DNA from: Linnemannia hyalina
Taxonomy: Eukaryota > Mortierellomycota > Mortierellomycetes > Mortierellales > Mortierellaceae
NCBI GenBank assembly: GCA_019671135.1
Contig: JAHRHY010000016.1
Coordinates: 310,001-374,000, forward strand
Direction of reading: 5' to 3'
Length of the DNA: 64,000 bases
Shown here in pieces: positions 312-40,512 of this stretch (its first letter is position 1; each line of letters starts with the position of its first letter). The notes under the pieces were generated by a model that was not told where the DNA came from, ran no database searches, and worked only from the letters and a program-made list of their open reading frames with translations. Both the position numbers and the translations under genes were made by a program.

Positions 312-3310
312 ATGTCATTCGAGATATACGGACCCGACCCAACAGTCCTCGACACCTCCGGTCGCAAACCTCACGTCCTCATCATTGGAGCTGGTCTCGC
401 CGGTAATACTCCCCAACCACCCCCTACTCTCTCTCTCACTCTTCAGCTCTTCCTCTCATGTCCACTCACGTCCACCCCACTTTACCCTTACCCACCATGC
501 AGCACACACAAACGGGCAGACAACAAAACAACAATAAAGAAGAGTACCACTTATCTAATCGCACATCATCCCCCTCTTATTTACTTCTCCGCCCTTGTGT
601 TACCATCGTTCATGCACATATGCGTCTCGCTATGCTCATGCTCCTCTTTACCTCGCTTCCCACTTTCCTTTCAATGTACATGACACAACACATAAATAGG
701 CCTGACGTTAGGGATCATGCTCCAGAAGGCTGGCATCCCATTTGACATCTTCGAGAAGTTACCCGAGGCCCGTGCCGTCGGTAAGTGTATAAACATACTG
801 ATCGTTTCGCTGATTTGGTAGAAAGCAGGTACCAGACGATGGTGTTCGGATATTTGGTCATGGGACCACAACGGATCTCAACGCAGGTCGTGTGCAGTAG
901 GACACTAGACAGCTGACCCATTTCTATTTTCTTTTACACTTTTCTCTCCCCATCTACTCCATCCCTCGATCTCATCCTTCCTCTTTCACCTCTTCATCCC
1001 CTCCTTCTCGCACCTCCTTCAAACAACCCCTCACACAACCAACACCACCAACCGATCACCACGACGAAAAACAACCCAATGAAAAACAGGCTCAGCACTA
1101 TTCCTAGCCCCACAAGTACACCCAATTCTCGAAGACCTCGGCATCTTCGACCAATACCTCCACCACTCAAATCTCTGCACAACCATCAACTTCTTCAACC
1201 AAGACATCCAACCTGAATCCAAACTCGATTTCCAACTCTACAACGAACTGTAAGTCCCTCTTTACGTTTCTAAGCTGCTCTTTACTCCTCCTCCCCCCCC
1301 CTGGTGTTTTCTTTTGCTCTTTTGAATTGGTCCAAAACTTTAACAAATACCATCACTTTACATTGTAGCACGACCTGTGAGGGAAGGGTCATTCCGCATG
1401 AAAAACTCCACGCCATCCTCCTCTCCCAAATCCCATCCTCACGGATCCACACCTCAAAACGCCTCCTCTGGTTCACGCAGGGCGAGAATGGTGTCCAAGT
1501 TCGCTTCTCCGACAGCAAGACCTTTGACGGAGATATCCTGGTAGGCGCAGATGGACCTGCCAGTGCGGTGCGACAGGGTTTGTATGAAAGTTTGAGGAAG
1601 CGAAACAAGCTGGCGAGGAAGGATCGTGGGGCTGTTAGGGAGGGACGAGAGAGTGGGATGATGGTAGATGGAGGTGGTGGGAAGAGGAGTGTGTGTTTGG
1701 TTGGGCAGACTGAGCCGTTAGACCAGCGGGTGGTATTGTCTGGGACATCTGAAGGTGTGAAGGAGGATGGGGAGGAAGAATGTAATATCAACATAATTCG
1801 GGCAAACGACAAGCCCTACTCTGTAAGTGTCACAACCGCCAGAATATGCCCGTTTTGCTAAAGTATCCATCCAATCCCATCTTTGGGTGGGGGGTTTTTT
1901 CTCATTCTCACCACTTACTTGACCCTACTCCTGGTACCTTTTTCTTTCTTTCTCTGGGTAACTAGTGGAACACGATGACGTGCAAGGGTGGATCGATAGC
2001 CTGGTCCATCACCCAACACTCCCCCTCTTCCCCCTCTCCCTGCACCAATGCCCAAACCACACCTTCCTCCGGCTCCTTTATTTCAAACCTTGACTGGAGC
2101 AGTGACGGCGTGGCGATCGAGACTATTACTACCCAAGTCCGCGACTTCCTAATCCCTTGCCCTCTCAAAGCCAACATCGGCATCAGCAACAGTCACGGCG
2201 ACAGCAACAAGACAAAGGTGACGATGGGAGACTTGATCGACAAGACACCCCGGGACAAAATCGCCAAGGTGGTGGTTGAGGGGCGAATGTTTGAGACATG
2301 GTATTATTGTCGGACGATCCTTATTGGCGATGGTAAGTCGAGGCTATACATACCGTGTATGCCAATTATTTTTTTTGGTGTTTGTGATGCTCGTGTGTGT
2401 GTGTGTGTGCGAGTGTGCCATGCAACCTTTTCCTTACTAAAGACTCTTCCTTTTTTTCTCTTTCCACTCCTGGTTCCATTTGGCTTTATCTTTTTTTTTT
2501 TTTTGAATGAAGCATGCCACAAGGTGAGTTATCCTATAACTGATCAAAATAAGCTATGATGATCATCATTCAACAACCTCAGGAACAAACAAAAACAAAA
2601 ACAAAAAAAAACGCACAGCCGTTTACATCTAATCTAATCTAAATCAATATCATTCACTCACTCTCCCTTTGAACCCAAAATAGCTAAACCTAGCAGGAAA
2701 CCAAGGAGCACACTTCGCCTTTCTCGATGCACACACCCTCTCCCATCACATATCCAACTTGACAACCACACAACTGAAACATCTCACCCCCGCATTCAAG
2801 GCCTACAAGTCTGCCCTTCTTCCAACGACCCAACGGGCCTGGCTTCTTTCCAGGGCACTTGAGACGCTGAGAGGTGGAGGTGGTGGTGGAGTAGGAGGGA
2901 AGGTGTTGAGGAAACTGCCGTCTTGGGCGTGGAGGAAGGTGTTTGGGCGTTTGGCCATTGGTCCAGGAGATAAGAAAGGAGCTAGTAATGGTGGTGGTGG
3001 TAGTGCCAGGGGGTTGAAGGCGCCTTCGGGATCGACGGTTTCATTGGATGACGAGAAGGATGATGAAGATGACGAGAAGGGGATTGTGAAGGCTGTGCGG
3101 TCTATCAGTTTTGAAGATGACGACCGAGACGAGGACGATCTCGAGGGTGACTATGATGATGAGGACGGTGACTATGATGACGATGGTGATGATGAAAGTC
3201 GAGATGGAAAGAGTAGTACGTCAAGCGACCAACAACTGACTACTATAATCGCCGTGTCCCCCGACAACTACAGCACAACAAAAAACCACAAACAGACATT
3301 AGAGAAATGA
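312..3310 (+). CDS. FAD-dependent monooxygenase, 7 exons, acidic C-terminal tail
   Basis: Exons 312-402, 700-780, 1090-1249, 1369-1822, 1966-2332, 2513-2523 and 2684-3310 join to 1791 nt, 596 aa. It belongs to the PHBH-like flavin monooxygenase group: dinucleotide motif GAGLAG at about residues 26-31, GADGPAS at 170-176 for FAD/NADPH contact, and the GD motif (GDACHK) at 383-388 followed by LNLAGNQGAH. Such enzymes hydroxylate aromatic or polyketide-like substrates with NAD(P)H and O2; the substrate cannot be read. Exon 6 is only 11 nt and encodes part of the GD motif. The last 100 or so residues after the flavin domain are low complexity: glycine-rich, then a run of Asp/Glu ending in Ser/Thr. 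The family usually ends soon after a short helical segment, so this tail is an oddity. All junctions are GT-AG and in phase. The next gene is convergent, with its stop about 155 bp away. Confidence 0.88.
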
Positions 3311-31316: not shown

Positions 31317-31827
31317 CTATGAAAGAATCTAAACAAAGTCAAGGTCCACTGCATGAATATACTGCTCTAGTTATTGCCATCTCCATCAAGCACTGGCTGC
31401 TTTGATAGCCGAGGCTCCTCCTGATGAAGGTTTAAAGAGAGAGAAAGGATGGAGGTGGGAGGATCAGTGCCGCATCACGAATTCTTCATTCTTCTTACCA
31501 TTTGTCAATCTTGTAGCAAGGTACTCACCTCCCCTACTGCTCTCGGTGACACTCGCTTTGGCTTTTTCGTGGTACGCGGGGATGATGCTGGCGCGGGCGA
31601 TGGCGACGTTGGCATTGCCTCTGGTGGTTCACTGATGCTATTATATAAATCCAGCGGTCGCAATCCATTCTATTACGTCATAAATCGCGTGGGTTCCGGG
31701 GACAATGGGCCAACCCATTCTGGGAAAAGTGGACTGCAATTCTCATTTCCTAGTCAGGACCTAAGACACTTTCCATTTGACAGTGCATTTGACAGCAACA
31801 ATTGATTTGACATTACTATCTTTTTAT
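31317..31827. other. Left flank of the MULE-Fanzor pair
   Basis: No gene supported. It contains ATCGCGTGGGTT-CC-GGGGACAA at 31684-31705, which recurs without the CC on the far side of the Fanzor gene at 39672-39691. Three copies of ATTTGACA lie at 31775, 31787 and 31805, just before the end of the transposase gene. A plus-strand frame here (31449-31805) was not accepted as a gene. Confidence 0.45.
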
Positions 31828-34819
31828 TCACATGCACTTTCGACCGGCATGAACCGTGTTCAAACCCTTCACCCCAAGAAGAGTGCACTCAAGGTCTGCT
31901 ACCGTGCTCTGAAAGTACTGAAGAGTGCACTTTCTTCTTTTTTTGGCGCGTGCCTCATCACCCATCGACTTCAATAAGTGTAACAGTCTTTTCTCGCACT
32001 CGTTGAACTCAATTGCTCGCTCAGACTCCCTTAATTTCATCCGCTCTGCTTTCTTCTCAGCACGGGCTAGCTCCATTTGAAGCACAACAAGAGGTACGAT
32101 AACACGCCATGCAGCTGGGATTTCATCCTCGCTAGACTCATCATCGTCTACCTCACCGCCATTGCTGATATCGTCGTCAGTCACGCCTTCATCCCGGACA
32201 AACATGCCACTTCCGTCATAACTGATATCCATGCTATTGTAAATCCGGGAGACCAAGTACATATGCTTGCAGGGCATTTGGTGCCGGACGTAGTCGGGGC
32301 ATGTGCAAAAAAGAAGTCGAGCTGCTTGTGCGTCTGCGCTGACGGCGTACTTGACATCAGGCGTAGTGAAAGAATTGACAAAGAACTACAAATGAATAAA
32401 AAAGTCAGAGGGATGTAATAATACTTAGAGAGTATTTTCAAAGGTCAGCACACATGCAAAAACAGGTTTCTTACCTCATTGTTCTCGTCCAGTTCGGCAA
32501 CCATGTCCTTGGAGGCAGCGAGTGACAACACCGCTGCCTTTTTCTTTATCGCCTTATCGTATTCTGAGAGTACAATAGGCTCCAATCCATGTACAACCTT
32601 GAAGTGATGCGTCCTGAAGTCAATGTCAATTACGCCTGTCAGCAAATGAATCAGATCATCTCCACGCATATCACGGATATGTTCCATATGTTGCCTCTTC
32701 AAAGTTGCATGCCAGCTTTCTACAAGATTGTTTGTGTTGATATGCTGGTAGTCCTGTTGACGGAGAAGGAAAAAAAGACATAGGTAAATATCTGCATTTT
32801 CTTTTGGTTATTTGTAACGATCAATGATCAAAAGACTCACCTCTCGTTGGTAAAGTACCCATCTGATTATTTTCTCTGGCTTCATCCAATTATTGTTGAT
32901 ATAATCGATCATCGAGGTTTGACCCGGAAACAAGCGCTGAAAGTTGACCCATTTTTCCTGTAGCTCGGCTTCTGAGTTCGCATACCGAACGGCATTCAAG
33001 GCCTTGCGCATATCACGGAGGCCCGCCGTCTAAATCGAACAAACCAAAAACAAACATGCATAATTTAGCCTTTGTGTGATTTGAAAAAACAACAACACGG
33101 TAACTCATCCTTTATAGGTCAAAGTACGTACGCCTCAATTCGATGTATATGTTCACATACCCCAAGCACTTCGAGAAATCCGCGCGCTTTTCGCTCCCAT
33201 GCTTGTCCCACATGAAACAAGCAGTAGTAGATCTCCAAGGTCGGAAATACCTGCTTTAGTGTTTCTGTCTCCGCGACGGAACAGTCGACCATGAACTTGG
33301 TAGCTTGTAGGCCGCAATCTGTCTTGAGCCAAGTCAGCCACTTTCTCAGTAACATGCTATAGTAGTAAGAAGAAAATATTGTGAGTACAGATGGATCGAA
33401 TTATTATTAGTAAAAAGTAACGGATGAACGAACGAGCGAACGAACGAATGAAACATAATAAATCGCGATCACTCATGAACCACATTTATTATTTTCCACT
33501 TTCCAACGGCCCATTCGACGTTCACCCAACAAGACTTACATCGACTCAGAGTTGCAAACCATAAAAGCGATCGGTATTCCCGAGCGCGATTGTCGATCTT
33601 TGACCAGAATCGTAAACAAGTACGCGGTTCCGTTGGCCTTCGGATTGTTGGGGTCCGGTCTCAATGACTTGACTGTTCTATGGGTTGAGTCCATACACAC
33701 AATCCCTTTGTTGTTGGCCATAATCTACAAATGAAAATGAACCAACGTTAGCAGCAGTGGATTGATGAGCAGATGAGAAAAACACGTAAATGAGACAACA
33801 GATCTGCTCCACTTGCCCTCATCTGGAACACTGTGCACCAAGCAAACACATAAAGGTGTTCGAAACCTTTGACCCCGTCCATAAACATGGATTTCCCTCC
33901 TTCTTGTTGGATACTGTCAAGCCAGAGCTTGACGCTTGCCGTAGCATCATCATGCTTACGAGAATCTGCAATCTTGTGTCGGTAGGCGGCTGTCCGAACA
34001 CCGCCGTAGTGCATGTAAAGGCATGGAGGCATGGGACCGAGAGTTTTTTGTTTCTCAAGCTTTATGCAGAACGAGCAAAGTACAAGAATATCGTTAGAAA
34101 AGCCATTAACAAGTAAGTCAGATGAGAGAAGTGTCGTCCAGGCAAGGAAAAATAAAATGGCAAGGAATAGAATACCGTATCCATTGTTTTTTTGTCCATC
34201 CGCAGTTGCGCCTTGATCGCCTTCCAGCTCGTTCTTGGCCATGGGTAGTTTCGCTCTCTCTTGCGGTGTATCCGGGTGATTGTGGATGCGGGTATACTCT
34301 ACTTCCACCCTGTCTTGAAGCAAGATCTTTCGAATCCTGATCATGGCAGGACAGTTAACGCCAACAGAATCCCGTTTGAGGATCAATTCCTTGGGAGGGC
34401 GATGTCTCCTGCACCTGAATAGAAGGCTCCAGTCGTACAACCGTGGTGAACCAGGTGCACCTGGCGCTGTTGCGTTTTTGATGGGGAGAAGTTGGTCGAT
34501 GTCGAGCTTTGTTTGTATGATATCCCCTTTTTTTCTGCCCTCCTGACGATGCTCAAACTGCATCGCAACTCGTTCGTTGCGCCAGAACGTCCTATGTCGA
34601 GGAATATGCGAATGAGAATTTACTAGGATCCAAGCTTGAGTTTGCAAATGGCGTACTGTGGCTGTACCTGAACTCTTCGCCTTTGAATACATGTGTCCAT
34701 GTCGCTTGTCCGTCTTCCCATACCATGTCCTCCGGGGGTATATGATGTGGTGCGACCGGGAGCAACGGGTCAAAGTCCTCAGGGTAAAGGAAAACATCCC
34801 CAGCCCTCAATGCAGTCAT
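31828..34819 (-). CDS. MULE (Mutator-like) DDE transposase with SWIM zinc finger
   Basis: Exons (minus) 34819-34668, 34591-33817, 33724-33540, 33356-33161, 33029-32841, 32753-32475 and 32385-31828 join to 2334 nt, 777 aa without a stop. The DDE core is readable: D321 in CMDSTHRT, D395 in KFMVDCSVAE followed by YYCLFHVGQAWERK, and E511 in NNLVESWHATLKRQ. A SWIM finger follows: FCTCPDYV (C619, C621) then MPCKHMYL (C631, H633). The N-terminal part has a basic segment (RCRRHRPPKELILKRD) resembling the DNA-binding region of MULEs. The tail is acidic then coiled-coil. The intron between 33817 and 33724 uses a GC-AG pair (donor GCAAGT). A possible 5'-splice GTATTC near 34175 lies inside exon 2, but the frame is open through it. 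The gene is divergent from the Fanzor gene, so both may belong to one element. Confidence 0.85.
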
Positions 34820-35220
34820 GCCTGGGAGGAGTTAGGGGGTTCAGATATGAAGGAAACTGGGAAAGGCAGCAAAAGGGGTGTAGTGATGATAAGAAGTCTT
34901 TTGTTTTTTTTGTTCTTTCAAGGGACGGCTGAGCGCGGAGTTTGATTGGATGGGAGGAGTGAAACTTTTCCCGCTCTGATGTAACATGCACGGTGGCAAA
35001 AACATAAGGAAATGATTGGTGCAAAGTCACCAGATGCTCATAGAGGAACTGGGAGGACAGAGACATTGGTCATCAAAGGAGGGTGACGGTGAATGCACCC
35101 TAATGAATATGTAGCTCGTTGTTGCTTCTTTTTCTTTTTTCTTTTTTCCTTCTTTACACTTCCAACACACACACCCACAACACACCTTACTCACCCTACT
35201 CACCCTACTTTCTCGCCCTC
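34820..35220. promoter_or_regulatory. Divergent promoter between MULE transposase and FEN1-Fanzor gene
   Basis: A 401-bp gap separates the two start codons. Its right half is a pyrimidine-rich leader with tandem CTCACCCTA words around 35187-35205, ending directly at the ATG 35221. The left half is A/T-rich. If the two genes form one mobile unit, this is its internal control region. No binding site is claimed. Confidence 0.5.
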
Positions 35221-36425
35221 ATGGGAGTTCCCTTGCTGTGGCCTCACATACGGCAGGAGGGTCATGAGGCAACTCTGCTTTGGCAGTTTCCTCAAGGCCC
35301 TTTACCCCCTGATGCCCTTTATCGTGTCGACCTCCTTGCCTCCTTCTTTCCTTCCATCCGACGAATTTTCTCTTCCAGCACTCACGACTACCTTACCTCC
35401 AACGTCATCTTCGAGCGACATCTGGTCTCCAGTCGTATCCCCAAGGCATCCTCGGTGCTTTATATTGACGGTCCATCCCCTGAGGAGAAGCGAGAGACAC
35501 GGCAACTCAGGGAGGAGAAGCGCATTATTGCATTGCAAAAAGCCCACATCTGGCTCTGCAACATGGAGACCCGAGTTGGTGGTCGGAGGAGGGTCAGGAA
35601 ACGTGACTTCACCAAACTCGACAAGCTCATCAGAGCCGCCTTTTATTGGACTCCGGATGCCCGCGCCTCCTTGGCCATTTACCTTCGCGTGCAAGGATGG
35701 ACGGTTGTCGAGTGTCCTTCTGAGGCAGACATTGCAATCGCTATCGACTCTCAACCCCAGGATATTGTAGTATCGGGAGACAGCGATATGCTCATCTATG
35801 CCACCGTTCATACCATATGGAGACCTATTTCGCGAGGCAAATACCTGGTGTACGATCTTCCAAATGTGCTGAGTTATCTGGGCATCTCAAGACTGGCATT
35901 GACGGTTCTAGGCATCGTTTGCAAGAACGACTACACGTCCAACTTGACTCGAATGGGGTTATCGACCAACATCAAGATTCTCAAATCCCTAGAGGAGATG
36001 AAAGGTAAAGCTCAATTGCCTTGTATGTTTTTTTTTGAAGATATACGCTAATGGGGGTTTTCTGATTCAATAGCTTTTGCTTGACCTCAGTACCTTGCTA
36101 ACAACGCTTCTGTCCATTTGTCTTTTACTATGATAGATCCAGCAGCTGGAGTAGAGCCAGTCACCGAAGCAAATGTCGAGACAATGGTCAAGCGGTACTT
36201 GGCTCATCCGGAAGTAGTCAGGAGGAACCCTGCCGCGACTCACTTCGAGGCAGCGGTGAGGGTTTTTGCTGGCCGGCAGTTCAAGGTCGCGGTTGCTACA
36301 ACACCATCACAGCCATCTGACCATACAAGCTCAACCAACTGCTCGACCCAAAAGTCTTCCGATCTAGCAGCGTTGCTTGAAAGGCTGCGTGTTCTTCGCC
36401 AGCGATTAAACGAGAACAAGAAAAG

Positions 36426-36517
36426 ATAAGGAGTTGTTCCAACGGCGATAACTTAACTGTAATTAAATGAATGAATTGTATTCTAACCTTTGTTTTTCTT
36501 CTGTGATTCTTTTGTAG
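36426..36517 (+). other. Intron with mutated 5' splice site (ATAAGG)
   Basis: The 92-nt segment has a branch-like TTCTAACC, a pyrimidine tract and the acceptor TTTTGTAG. Phase 2 at 36425 matches phase 2 required at 36518, giving a continuous protein across the junction. Only the first base differs from a perfect GTAAGG donor. Unspliced, the frame meets TAA at 36427-36429. It lacks the ATATCCTT donor of U12 introns. Confidence 0.7.
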
Positions 36518-37145
36518 TCTCGTTGCCGATCAACTGGTGCAACAGACGGATGTATTTAACCGGTACGCCACCGTGGACCGTCCGCCAGATCAGCGGCCTC
36601 CTCCTCATTCATCAGGGAGAAGATACAAGCACCGCCAACGATATGCTATCAAGACCCGCTCTCAGGTTGTGAAGCATGAGCCACCAGAAGCCATGAAACA
36701 GAACCAATGGAAACCATACAAGTCGGCCCCTGATTCTCCGTTGGAACCGCAGTCAGCCGTCTCTTCATCGAAACCCAAGTCACCGAAACGTCTGCCGTCT
36801 GCGGAGGGTATGGACAAGAAGGATCTGGTTAATGCCATGGCAAGGGACCACCCCATGCGAACACTTGACATTGGCACCGTCAATGCCAACGCAACCAGAG
36901 GCCTGAACAGGGAATTTGGTCCAGAAGGCTCGTCTGTTTATCTTCCGAGGGTCAAGATCGCCCTTCGAGATATTGCCCATCAGTCGTCTCATGTCAAGCG
37001 GGTTTGCCAGAGGGCTATTGGCTTGTATCTGGAGCGCCTTGCACTCTCCATAAACGAGTCAGTGGTGCCAGCGGTGCCAGCGGTGCCAGTGGTGCCAGCG
37101 TTGCCAATGGTCATGGATGTGGTGGGGACCATCGAGTCCGTCCAG

Positions 37146-37205
37146 CCCCTTCAACAGCAACCCCTTCAACAGCAACCCCTTCAACAGCAGCCCCTTCAGA
37201 AGCAG
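37146..37205 (+). repeat. 15-bp minisatellite encoding (PLQQQ)3-PLQKQ
   Basis: Four consecutive 15-bp units (CCCCTTCAACAGCAA and variants) in frame within the linker between the FEN1-like and Fanzor domains. Just upstream, 9-bp units GTGCCAGCG encode VPA/VPV repeats (about 37063-37106). The linker is therefore fast-evolving and probably disordered. Confidence 0.85.
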
Positions 37206-39580
37206 GCGAGTAAGCTTCATGCTGAAGATCGCTTAATTCTCGATAAGCTATGCCCAAAGTTCACCGCCAAGGACATTGCTGACGGCAGAAACATCAACGA
37301 CGGCACAACAGAGGATCTCACCAAGCCCGATGATTCAGAGCACGATGAAACATTGGACAAAAAGAACGAACCCCTCCAGTTCTTGATGTGTCTGTTGAAT
37401 GCCGTGTACTCTGGCAAACTGCCTAAAAGGCAGAAGGGGAAGGAAAAGGGGGGTGCACCCTCAATTGACAGTCCAAGCGCAGTCTGCACCTTTATCGAAC
37501 GAGCCCGGGATTTTCTGCCAGCAATCACGAAGGACGGGGACGGGTTAGAAAGGGACTTTGCGGGTTCGAGCTTTTTACGATCAACCGCCTTGCAACTGTC
37601 GGTTGAGCTGAAGAAGCACTACAGGAATGGTTCGACGGACCTTTGCGAAAAGGTAAAGATCGTTTGAATGCGAAAAAAATTACTATTGAATCCTTTGTTT
37701 AGACTTGGACGAACGCTGTTATTGACGCTCTTCCGTTTTTTCTATAAAAAAAGTTTGCCCTCCTCAAGACGAAGAAGCTCCTGCCACTCGAAGCAAGGGA
37801 TTGCGTCGATCCCGACATCACTGCATTTGAGAATTTCGTCCTTTTGAACAGGGTATGCGGCTGCCCCCGTTCATTAGTGCCGATGTCGTCTTTTGAAAAC
37901 AAGTTTATCACTGTCTCCGAGTTGGAACTTACAAGGATCTTTTGGCGGGATCCGATGTTAAAGACAGTGCTTCAATCCTACGCATGGCCCGACTTTCCAA
38001 GTATCGAATACGCCGACCAAGTGTCTCAGACTGATGTCGGAATGTGGCTCTCTAGAGCAGTACCCGGTTGCCTTATCACGAAGTTACTCACTGACATTGG
38101 GGGATACTCGGAGGTGGAACGGAAAAAGCTGCGGAACTACTCCCGGTCGACTCGCCTGATGCCTCTTGAAGATACAAGACGACACATACAACAAATCCGA
38201 CACGCTGACTTCCAGCCCACATCATACACGGACAAGGGCTATGTCCTCCATGGATCCATTCGGACTGATGGTTTCCGTCTCCAGCTCATCGCCTTCAAAA
38301 TGAACGAGCTGCATTCCGTCAAGTACCGACAGTTACCGGCGGATCGACTCCCGAATCGTCTCACTTCCACTGTTGCCGGCACGGACTACTTTCTGACGGA
38401 GATTCGGAACGTGGTGTCTACCCCGCAGGACGTTGTCGACCTCTGGGGATGTGATCCGAAAAGAATCAAGATTCTCGGTATCGACTTGGGACAGGCGTTT
38501 GTGGTGGGAGCAAGCGCTTTATTACCCTCTCGCAACAAGCACCTTGACGCGGAAGGAGGTCCAGAGGGAGCCCAGAAGGATCCATTGGTCAAGCAACCTA
38601 CGACAAAGTATTTCAACCTCGCAGTCAAGCAGAAAGCGGTGTATCAACCTACCCTCAAGCACCGGCGTTGGTTAGAGCAGAGAAAGGCACAGCCGCTCGA
38701 GGGGGGAGGATCCATCTGCCAGATTGAGACCAGTCTGCCCGCTCGCTTTGGTCCTGATGCGAGTATTGCCGAGTACACAACAAGGATGCAGGAGGTGGAG
38801 GCCCAGCTGGGTTCCTTTTATGGTAGTGTTGTCTTGAAGAAGCATCGGTGGAACGCCAGGAAGGCTCGCGACGAGGAGTACCGTCTGATTGCCAATCGTT
38901 TGCTCGAGATGGTTGGAGGATCATTGGGAGCCAAGAGAAAGGAGAGCAACAAGATCGTCATTGGAGTTGGCCTGGGGCAGTTCTCTTCCAGGATCAGGCT
39001 CTCGTCGCTGCACGAGTCTTTTGAGTCGTACTTTATTCAAAAAGTAAGTACGCTGAACTATTACTCTTAGTCTTCTGTTATCGTTGGGAAATGCAGCATG
39101 CGGAGACTAACTATGTTATATTTTGTTCTTTTTCTCTATTAGGCACGATCGCTTGGATACATTGTTGTCGGTGTAAACGAGTATTACACTTCAAAGAAGT
39201 GCCCAACTTGTGGAGGGTTCGTTGGCCAAGTGGATCTCCGGCGCCTGTACTGTTCAGAGTGCAAAAAGTACATGCATCGAGACGTGATGGCCGGTCACAA
39301 TATCTGTAATGTCATTCGTGGCCACCTCCTCAAGCAAGAGCGACCGCGCTACCTCCAGCCCAAGGACATTGATGGCAATTATCCCTGGGAAGAGAAACAG
39401 AGTTTCAGGCCCCACCCTGGGGGGTCTGGTGCTGGTGGGCACAAGGGCAAAGGGGTCAAACGAAAGGCGACTGACGAGGGAACGGATTCCAGTCAATTCA
39501 GGAGAGTATCAGTGTAGTTTTCTATTTAGATCATTTGTGTATAAGCAAATACATATGATCGAGTTTGGGTTCGGGAGAAC

Positions 39581-39659
39581 GCACGACTACTCACTTCGGT
39601 GACGTAGTTTGCGTTTGGCGTACGACTTGTCACTTCGGTGACGTAGTTGTTGCGCCCAT
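39581..39659 (+). ncRNA. Tandem UUCG-hairpin repeat, candidate Fanzor guide (omega) RNA region
   Basis: Two units with a 39-bp period start about 65 nt after the Fanzor stop. Each contains TCACTTCGGTGACGTAGTT. Unit 1 folds as ACTAC-TCAC / UUCG / GTGA-(C)-GTAGT, nine pairs with one bulged C and the very stable C(UUCG)G loop. Unit 2 folds as GTCAC / UUCG / GTGAC. TnpB and Fanzor guide RNAs come from the region next to the nuclease gene at the element end, so position fits; no transcript evidence is available and the guide boundary is unknown. Confidence 0.4.
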
Positions 39660-40010
39660 TGTCCTGGAACCATCGCGTGGGTTGGGGACAAGACCAAGAA
39701 ATGGCCCGTGGTTTCAATGTTTGGTACATCACTTTCCATCCATCGCAACAACCCGATCGCCAAAAAATCTCTAAAGTAGCCCAGAAGTTAAGGTAATGGT
39801 GGTGTCCTTGAAGGCAACATGCATGGCGTCGTATACGGATTTCGAGAATAGATGCGAGTAGGGTCCTCCTTGGACTTTGCGCGTGGGTCCTTGAGGGAAC
39901 GGAAATGAAATGCATGAAGTACCCCCCTCCATACGGCCTCATCTATCCTTGTATCCTCTTCTCGTCAGGATGAGCAGGGATCCATGTCGCTCCAGTGACG
40001 GTCAACTCCT

Positions 40011-40202
40011 TGGGTCCATGAGTGATCATAGGCTTAGCCGGGCGCTGGACTGCCACTCCATATGACCTCTCCAGAGACAGGGTTTAACATCCTGGCTTTG
40101 ATGGTGCTGTTGATCTCGATCTGTTGCAGTTGGTTGGTTGCTTGTGGGTCCATGAATGGTCATAGGCTTAGCCGGGCGCTGGACTGCCATTCCATATGAC
40201 CT
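40011..40202. repeat. Pair of 58-bp direct repeats
   Basis: Copies at about 40011-40069 and 40145-40202, 134 bp apart. Both contain TGGGTCCATGA, CATAGGCTTAGCCGGGCGCT and TCCATATGACCTC, and differ at only about four positions. Non-coding. They could be a duplicated piece of element end or a relic of a nested insertion. Confidence 0.75.
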
Positions 40203-40512
40203 CACCCAGCCTCTCGGCTGTGGTGGAGCTGCAATCGATGCTGTTCCTTGGGATGGCTATGGTGACCGGAAGCCTCCTGGCTGCGGCTGTTTTCACCGCT
40301 GGGTGACTGGGGCCACCACGTTGTATGGGTTAATAGCATCAAGGGAGTTGTATGGTTGTGTTTGTTATCATCGAGGTCACCAGCCATTACCTACAGCGCG
40401 TATCTATATTAGATATCCTACCGCGAACCAAGGCCACACCAGCCCTTCAACCAAGGCGGAACCAAGTCGCATCAAGGAAAGTCACCATTTGTTTTATTTA
40501 TGGACCCGTTGA

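Follow-up and report, generated by a model that had tools for sequence, protein, structure and literature searches.

The 64,000-nt window analysed here, from contig JAHRHY010000016.1 of the soil fungus Linnemannia hyalina (Mortierellaceae), contains a MULE-type transposon of about 8.0 kb with two genes on opposite strands, a transposase gene and a gene predicted to encode a FEN1/XPG-like nuclease followed by a Fanzor-type nuclease (table 1). The right boundary, at 39671/39672, is where the copies C1 and C21 cease to align, and recovery of the left end in C1 supports the boundaries of the element; in C21, a left end was looked for at the expected place and none was found there. C1 is flanked by its own, different duplication, GACATTG(GG), and a terminal inverted repeat (TIR) with a TSD of 8–9 bp is present at two different insertions. 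MULE transposons have TSDs of 8–11 bp. The transposase gene was recognized from a MULE piece (Pfam MULE, 22.6 bits versus a cut-off of 27.6, E = 1.5e-4) and from a SWIM zinc finger scoring above its cut-off (20.4 versus 19.6 bits). With its TIR, 8-bp TSD and MULE/SWIM pieces, the carrier of the Fanzor-type gene is a canonical eukaryotic DNA transposon. It resembles the MuDR-like Fanzor elements ROr-4, PBl-3 and MCi-4 of Rhizopus, Phycomyces and Mucor, which are Fanzor1-bearing, MuDR-type elements of early-diverging fungi with 9-bp TSDs (PMC3627910, in part); they encode no MuDR transposase, whereas the window's element has transposase pieces, and the excerpted text mentions no FEN domain for them.

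Table 1. The transposon and its FEN–Fanzor gene, in window coordinates
Feature	Position	Strand	Description
Left TSD copy	31684..31691	.	8 bp, ATCGCGTG; identical to 39672–39679
Whole transposon	31692..39671		7,980 bp; MULE-type; transposase gene on minus strand, FEN–Fanzor gene on plus strand; from TIR, TSD and copy alignments
Left terminal inverted repeat	31692..31709	+	GGTTCCGGGGACAATGGG; inverted match to right end GGTTCCAGGACAATGGG
Transposase gene	31831..34806	-	Several exons; MULE domain piece 33122–33400, SWIM zinc finger 31831–32385
Exon 1	35221..36004	+	FEN1/XPG-like nuclease domain; D37, D83, E168, D170, D187, D189, D237
Intron 1	36005..36136	+	GTAAAG...TATGATAG; frame, splice signals, homologous intron in relatives
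Exon 2	36137..36425	+	Helical C-terminal part following FEN domain; frame open; C1 protein 100% identical
Intron 2	36426..36517	+	Separates FEN and Fanzor parts; non-GT donor here; in-frame TAA 36427–36429
Exon 3	36518..37652	+	Linker and N-terminal Fanzor part; conserved FNRYxTVDRPP near start (36555), no preceding ATG
Intron 3	37653..37753	+	GTAAAG...AAAAAAAG
Exon 4	37754..39043	+	Fanzor REC/WED part and RuvC-I; TDG motif 38261, catalytic D codon 38483; alignment A2
Intron 4	39044..39142	+	GTAAGT...TCTATTAG
Exon 5	39143..39517	+	Alternative-position RuvC glutamate (codon 39179), zinc ribbon CPTC/CSEC, RuvC-III HRD (codon 39281), stop; Pfam Cas12f1-like_TNB 8e-13
Predicted guide-RNA (omega/reRNA) scaffold	39518..39671	+	Two UUCG-loop hairpins; closing stem from the terminal repeat itself
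Right TSD copy	39672..39679	.	Identical to left copy at 31684–31691

The first-pass annotation had joined the FEN1/XPG and Fanzor parts in one spliced reading. Comparison with other copies bears out the single gene, of which the FEN1/XPG-like exon and the Fanzor exons are collinear parts; the window copy itself is probably broken, because the 5′ splice site between the two halves is non-canonical. A cryptic in-frame donor restoring the reading was sought and seems unlikely: of 39 GT/GC sites, 12 are in phase with the acceptor at 36517, none of these matches the donor consensus strongly by eye, and the nearest to it is GTACTT at 36195. A sister copy, 98–99% identical to the window copy, is open. 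In C1, C25, C4a, C4b and C22 (five of the nine copies read), the homologous donor of intron 2 is GTAA, in the same phase and at the same place. In C25, C48 and C12b, the exon 3 alignment begins at residue 1 or 2 of the exon with no start codon there, which requires an upstream exon. Among the eight copies modelled end to end, a set leaving out C12a, C12b, C22, C48, L052, L055, L056 and L059, five (C1, C4a, L051, L053 and L054) encode an uninterrupted FEN–Fanzor protein of 1285–1405 aa and read through the homolog of intron 2, so that their FEN part does not terminate at the position of 36429; the models of C25, C4b and L057 are not open.

The same arrangement recurs across the genome and in other genera. 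A Fanzor locus lies downstream of 68 of the 80 FEN-like loci, on the same strand and at near-constant spacing, when about 0.46 such pairs would be expected, and chance adjacency was rejected on these figures; nine more neighbourhoods within 5 kb, in which the Fanzor match lies on the opposite flank of the FEN match, were not counted among the 68. We also rejected the possibility that the other multicopy XPG families of the genome belong to an unrelated transposon: of nine loci taken from them (L051–L059), eight reach the FEN gene, all with FEN and Fanzor matches, and the ninth, L058, begins at the FEN end. Protein searches, in which nearly 8,000 candidates with the most shared words were scored, retrieved 16 annotated relatives, and in 14 of these, which come from six genera, a single protein includes some or all of each half; homologs are therefore not always separate genes. 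One of them, P0014 of Entomortierella parvispora, is full-length, beginning with the FEN start and extending through the TNB zinc ribbon. A protein search with an 11-row alignment returned P0014 alone and missed the other rows of that alignment, so that it has no bearing on absence outside Mortierellaceae; in the viral collection, the FEN profile found no relative. It is highly improbable that the two nucleases are neighboring genes of one transposon, fused by a reading or gene-prediction artefact: the FEN frame of the window copy does stop at a TAA ahead of the Fanzor exons, predictors do merge neighboring transposon pieces (P0011 and P0012 have a piggyBac piece joined to the FEN–Fanzor gene) and P0001 is a chimera spanning a deletion, but the start-less conservation of exon 3, the shared GTAA donor, the open frames in divergent lineages (C1, C4a, L051 and L053/L054) and the complete protein of another genus all argue against it. 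Comparison of sequences shows that, in Linnemannia and five related genera, a transposon gene encodes an N-terminal FEN1/XPG-superfamily nuclease, a linker and a Fanzor-type nuclease. As the first-pass annotation had supposed, we found no description of such a FEN–Fanzor fusion in the literature.

Phylogenetic trees of the FEN and Fanzor parts, built from 14 of the 17 gathered proteins (P0002, P0005 and P0011 were left out), both recover a split between two clades, A and B, with supports of 100 and 100, and also agree on the groups ((L053,P0013),P0015) and (P0004,P0007); the FEN tree was flagged for the long branches of C4a and P0016. Both main clades have the fusion and, because the two trees share one deep split, it probably predates that split. 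Near-identical copies in clade B show recent spread. In L053, the gene is accompanied by a piggyBac-type transposase piece (2233–3024; E = 2.5e-20). The transposon backbones that carry it thus number at least two, the MULE and a piggyBac remnant.

The FEN half shares with the FEN1/XPG/EXO1/GEN1 superfamily an MG start, the metal-binding acids and the predicted fold, and has an NDY motif where FEN1 and Rad2 have DY. All seven positions initially listed as a FEN1-like active site are indeed acidic in the window copy. In an alignment of 11 sequences (A1), D83, D170, D187, D189 and D237 are invariant and D37 nearly so; where clade A has E168, each of the four clade B sequences has Q, as do L055, L056 and L059, and the six other acids are kept in both clades. 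Clade B, lacking one of seven metal ligands (presumably E158 in human numbering), may have an altered activity. All rows, the window copy included, have D at a position which, from alignment to Rad2 and archaeal FEN1, we take to be human FEN1 E160. Because E160D is reported, in the excerpted text of PMC9312813, to affect the exonuclease and gap activities of human FEN1, flap cutting would fit this residue better than resection. These two substitutions set the FEN half apart from the superfamily, as do its location on a transposon, its fusion to a presumed RNA-guided nuclease and, in the window copy, a Pfam XPG_I score below the cut-off (17.1 versus 24.9 bits); among eight scanned relatives, only P0003 exceeds an XPG cut-off (XPG_I_2, 29.0 versus 24.2 bits). 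The best PDB sequence matches are yeast Rad2 and archaeal FEN1, and structure prediction, proposed at the outset as a check, gives the domain a FEN fold, with EXO1 among the fold matches.

The FEN exon is under purifying selection, as tested in clade A. The comparisons listed are of pairs that span 90 codons or more and have a dS below 1.6. Wherever dS reaches 0.1 or more (18 comparisons, or 13 once three doubly entered loci are counted once), dN/dS lies at 0.17–0.35; L037 and L038, with three stops each in the FEN exon, take part in eight of these 13. The ratio is 0.17 for L041/L042, at a dS of 1.10, and ranges from 0.16 to 1.78 in close pairs (dS < 0.1). Exon 4 pairs of the Fanzor half give 0.15–1.22.

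Fanzor1 proteins are reportedly eukaryotic TnpB relatives carried by DNA transposons, an account associated with the names of Bao and Jurka (in 2013) and of Saito and Yoon (both in 2023). The second half of the fusion resembles them in its RuvC triad, its TDG motif of the WED domain and its TNB zinc ribbon, and in being carried by MuDR-like or other DNA transposons of fungi; the predicted fold of the element's right end, in which the terminal repeat takes part, would be a further likeness. The zinc ribbon scores well above the Pfam cut-off in the window (PF07282, 48.8 versus 26.3 bits), and the HRD supplying the RuvC-III aspartate follows CPTC/CSEC. As in Fanzor1, a glutamate lies six residues ahead of the first CxxC (NEYYTSKKCPTC in the window, DEYLTSTMCPTC in clade B), the alternative glutamate defined for Fanzors in PMC10711439 (in part). 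In alignment A2, the RuvC-I aspartate is found in all eight rows, and the alternative glutamate, the zinc ribbon and the last aspartate in the six that extend that far, from both clades; RTDG occurs in three clade A and three clade B rows, with TNG in L059 and SNG in L055. By these motifs, the catalytic triad (D980/E1179/D1213) and the CPTC/CSEC ribbon named in the first-pass annotation are kept. RuvC-I itself is not Fanzor-typical in the window: the DPG motif, near exclusive to Fanzors, is present in the five clade B rows, whereas the window and clade A have DLG (DGG in C4a). Clade B therefore fits the Fanzor1 fingerprint, and we class the window's clade as Fanzor-related, outside that fingerprint. 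Unlike Fanzor1, the fusion has about 260 aa of FEN1/XPG-type nuclease at its N-terminus, followed by a linker.

The right end of the element folds strongly as predicted RNA, with a minimum free energy of -61 versus -38.9 (sd 3.6) for shuffles (z = -6.2); z ranges from -2.3 to -4.05 at the right ends of five other copies, and within the window the hairpin motif is found at that end only. Covariation is weak, with three pairs showing two-sided change versus a shuffle average of 2.2, seven cells changed on both sides versus 3.6, and a covariation score above that of most shuffles. The RNAalifold consensus retains a 5-pair structure only; stems look misaligned, which partly accounts for this and for the weak covariation, and Rfam returned for the right end one match, far below cut-off. 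In Fanzor1 reRNAs, the scaffold is placed at the right end, with the terminal repeat and the TSD within it (PMC10711439, in part). The predicted fold is as expected of such a scaffold, and known Fanzors suggest that its guide would begin just after the right TSD copy.

Fanzors are known RNA-guided cutters, and the fusion bears on how such cutting could aid the survival of a cut-and-paste transposon in a eukaryote. A fused FEN-type nuclease that is under selection and occurs in both of the deeply separated clades suggests that cut-end processing is part of the Fanzor job, an idea that the fusion makes directly testable. Cas12-like cuts leave 5′ overhangs, and T5 exonuclease and EXO1 are members of the FEN superfamily. 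The role we tentatively favor as the most likely one is 5′-end or flap processing coupled to RNA-guided cutting, which would promote homologous repair and, through it, retention or copying of the transposon. The structured right end would be transcribed as a guide scaffold with a guide extending into flanking DNA; the Fanzor half would cut the matching site emptied by departure of the transposon, or else an empty allele on the sister chromatid or another chromosome, leaving 5′ overhangs and a displaced strand; and the tethered FEN half would trim the 5′ ends or flaps, hindering simple end-joining, so that repair would copy a template still holding the transposon and the element would be restored or copied. 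This may, with somewhat less than even odds, amount to a natural cut-and-resect, self-homing system: a transposon-encoded enzyme, RNA-guided and equipped with a 5′ nuclease of its own, would cut the donor site once empty, or the allelic one, and process the ends so that repair copies the transposon in, and, as part of the same guarded reading, evolution would have assembled it before the man-made exonuclease–Cas enzymes. These laboratory enzymes couple a 5′ nuclease to an RNA-guided one: in the excerpted sources, T5 exonuclease on the N-terminus of ErCas12a, the position the FEN half also occupies, gave knockout and knock-in at high efficiency in zebrafish without heat shock (PMC8945719); with an EXO1-based Cas9 "exonuclease editor", homology-directed repair rose and end joining fell (PMC11107001). 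They are built with Cas effectors, whereas the FEN–Fanzor fusions are natural, transposon-borne and present in six genera, and would be pre-evolved counterparts of such hand-built editing enzymes.

Other roles for the FEN half appear less probable. It could serve transposition, processing flaps or gaps left by the MULE or piggyBac transposase at transposon ends or target, with the Fanzor half bringing it there, as the company of a transposase gene on the MULE and of a piggyBac-type piece in L053 might suggest; we consider this unlikely, since the fusion is found in company with either of two unrelated transposases, which makes a transposase-specific step unlikely, and piggyBac excision is seamless. 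Maturation of the guide RNA or mRNA, with the right-end RNA, or an RNA/DNA hybrid, trimmed on its 5′ side in place of cut DNA ends, seems rather improbable: the candidate structured RNA adjoins the gene and FEN-family enzymes remove 5′ RNA primers, but they mainly cleave DNA flaps, and guide production in other Fanzors and TnpBs proceeds, to our knowledge, without a FEN-type domain. Primer excision is mentioned for FEN1 in the excerpted text of PMC9312813. That the FEN half is a non-enzymatic module binding DNA junctions, at least in clade B, where Q replaces E168, is more doubtful still, given the six acids kept in both clades and the purifying selection in clade A. As for the Fanzor half, it may also act, or have acted, without a FEN partner, because 51 of the 119 Fanzor loci, many of them fragments, have no FEN match within 5 kb.

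A gene joining an N-terminal FEN1/XPG-like nuclease (FEN) to a Fanzor nuclease (Fz) is almost certainly real, and the copy in the window is probably defective. The first-pass annotation had placed both halves of that copy in one spliced reading. Its 5' splice site between the halves lacks GT, so that the FEN frame runs into a TAA at 36427-36429. Among nine copies read, five (C1, C25, C4a, C4b, and C22, named after their contigs in the same genome) carry GTAA donors of matching phase at the homologous place, the reading being ambiguous in C12a, C12b, and C48; the C1 copy is 98-99% identical to that of the window. Conservation in exon 3 (36518..37652) starts at the first residues, with FNRYxTVDRPP shortly after and no ATG ahead of the conserved stretch, which therefore needs splicing to an upstream exon. 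End-to-end models were open in five of the eight copies tried: C1 (1295 aa), C4a (1285 aa), and loci L051 (1351 aa), L053 (1397 aa), and L054 (1405 aa), those of C4a, L051, and L054 relying on automatic splice-site choice, with one probably unnatural site each in C4a and L054. The others were C25 (stop at 538), L057 (stop at 476), and C4b (no join found). The single reading holds for the open copies and probably not for the window's, and termination of the FEN part at 36429 in intact relatives is contradicted by these open copies.

The two domains are not always encoded as separate genes either. Two protein searches retrieved 16 annotated relatives, all gene predictions and part of them marked partial, from Linnemannia, Mortierella, Podila, Entomortierella, Dissophora, and Modicella; in 14 of them a single protein includes some or all of both FEN and Fz (exceptions, P0001 and P0006). 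A complete protein of 1363 aa, P0014, comes from Entomortierella parvispora and shares 49% identity with L053 over the whole query. Open copies are found elsewhere in this genome as well as in a second genus. In P0011 and P0012, a piggyBac piece is glued onto the predicted protein. Clustering of genome search matches gave 80 FEN loci and at least 119 Fz loci (Fz counts are lower bounds, 97 of 187 candidates having been scored in one search). A same-strand Fz lies downstream within 5 kb of 68 of the 80 FEN loci (about 0.46 expected), and the paired matches mostly stand 1.5-2.0 kb apart (median 1630 nt). Twelve FEN and at least 51 Fz loci, many of them fragments, are unpaired. These Fz loci, L007 (G000:C23:1893282-1894553), whose exon is open, and 50 others, have no FEN match within 5 kb, and are either solitary Fanzors or copies that lost FEN.

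The window (G000:C8:310001-374000, in an assembly of 51.5 Mb) carries the gene on a transposon (see table). The copy in C1 is bounded by ends of its own and flanked by a different duplication, GACATTG(GG). Transposase pieces on the minus strand include a MULE domain (under the Pfam cut-off) and a SWIM finger (over it). Locus L002 (G000:C21) is an internal-deletion copy in which 33571 is joined to 36263 (window coordinates); its public annotation, P0001, joins a transposase piece and a Fanzor into one chimeric protein.

The stretch between stop codon and element end (154 bases) folds at -61 kcal/mol, against -38.9 (sd 3.6) for dinucleotide shuffles (z -6.2), ranking 14th of 3,452 equal-length window stretches (both strands, overlapping ones counted); the fold is strong and not unique in the window. 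The area of the two direct repeats past the transposon (see table) also folds strongly. In the closing stem, GGUUC pairs with GAACC of the terminal repeat, and the hairpin motif occurs, within the window, at the right end only. For the right ends of five other copies, z lies between -2.3 and -4.05. When aligned, 75% of cells pair (38-48% when slid). Covariation is weak: pairs changed on both sides number 3, inside the shuffle range (mean 2.2), while two-sided-change cells (7 vs 3.6) and covariation score (0.141 vs 0.107) are above most shuffles. Fanzor1 scaffolds include terminal repeats and target-site duplications (TSDs), according to a portion of Yoon et al. (PMC10711439). The right end is a likely candidate guide scaffold.

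The most likely mechanism, to which we give slightly less than even weight, would start with a guide RNA made from this right end; the Fz half would cut the empty donor site or allelic site, the tethered FEN half would trim 5' ends or flaps, and repair would copy from the element-holding template. That such coupling can alter outcomes is shown by two laboratory constructs: ErCas12a with T5 exonuclease on its N-terminus (PMC8945719), and a Cas9 editor based on EXO1 (PMC11107001).

Most of the acids proposed for the FEN active site hold: in 11 aligned sequences, D83, D170, D187, D189, and D237 are invariant and D37 almost so, whereas E168, present in clade A (that of the window), is replaced by Q in clade B. 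The site which we take to be human FEN1 E160 is D in every row. A review reports that E160D in the human enzyme affects exonuclease and gap activities (PMC9312813). In clade A, to which the selection comparisons are restricted, every one of the 18 listed comparisons with dS >= 0.1 gives a FEN exon dN/dS between 0.17 and 0.35 (13 comparisons once duplicate loci L029/C4a, L036/C22, and L041/C4b are counted singly, 8 of these involving L037 or L038, both with stops). Close pairs range from 0.16 to 1.78. For Fz exon 4 the pairs span 0.15-1.22, some of them containing stops.

The second half is Fanzor-related, Fanzors being a known kind of RNA-guided nuclease; with DLG, the window's clade departs from the Fanzor RuvC-I fingerprint DPG, which clade B retains. 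In the parts consulted, Bao and Jurka (2013; PMC3627910) place Fanzor1 on Mariner, Helitron, Sola, IS4, and MuDR elements, the MuDR-like ones in Rhizopus, Phycomyces, and Mucor having 9-bp TSDs; "flap," "XPG," "Rad2," and "FEN" are absent from its main text, as are "flap" and "Mortierell" from the texts of Saito (2023) and Yoon (2023). No description of a FEN-Fanzor fusion was found in the mostly open literature on Fanzor/TnpB with FEN1/XPG or Mortierella (few subscription papers or preprints covered), and the conserved architecture is, as far as searched, new.

Clades A (window, C1, C25, C4a, and others) and B (L051-L059) share about 22-29% identity. FEN and Fz trees (14 rows each) both recover this split (100/100), and the junction intron (36426..36517 in the window) lies at a matching place in both clades; both observations are most simply explained by a fusion older than the split, two independent fusions standing as a formal alternative. 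The trees concur on ((L053,P0013),P0015) and (P0004,P0007) and place P0003, P0008, P0009, and P0010 differently, the base of both clades being unsettled in the FEN tree, which was flagged for long branches. Near-identical clade B copies (L053/L054/L057, 99.6-99.7% over 6.2-6.6 kb; L051/L052, 99.4% over 5.3 kb) show recent spread of this clade.

Gene cassettes also seem to have been swapped among transposon backbones, because a piggyBac-transposase piece (L053:2669-2988, L055, L056, and L059) keeps 94-98% identity across elements that share only about 30% in their FEN-Fz proteins. Of the Pfam profile, 349 positions long, the L053 transposase frame covers only 8-115. Elements of this type (e.g., L053:2222-8829) start with TATCCC and end with GGGATA in three copies, in which no TSD was seen. 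Short fragments with stops, 74-84% identical to the clade B1 Fanzor and matching parts of residues 1-194 of that 475-residue query, are located upstream of FEN-Fz loci that belong to other subfamilies, at a distance of 0.2-1.3 kb.

Coordinates of the transposon and associated features (window positions unless a contig of G000, the L. hyalina assembly, is named)
Feature	Coordinates	Description
Transposon	31692-39671	7,980 bp; carries the FEN-Fz gene
Transposon termini		GGTTCCGGGGACAATGGG at one end, inverted GGTTCCAGGACAATGGG at the other (sequence match)
Target-site duplication		ATCGCGTG on either flank of the transposon
Direct repeats	40011-40072; 40145-40206	two of 62 bases, 94% identical, a little past the transposon
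Clade B1 Fanzor fragment	C5:1607085-1607619	
Clade B1 Fanzor fragment	C1:300629-301164	
Clade B1 Fanzor fragment	C23:2621441-2621972	
Clade B1 Fanzor fragment	C48:1494227-1494809	
Clade B1 Fanzor fragment	C12:3162052-3162611
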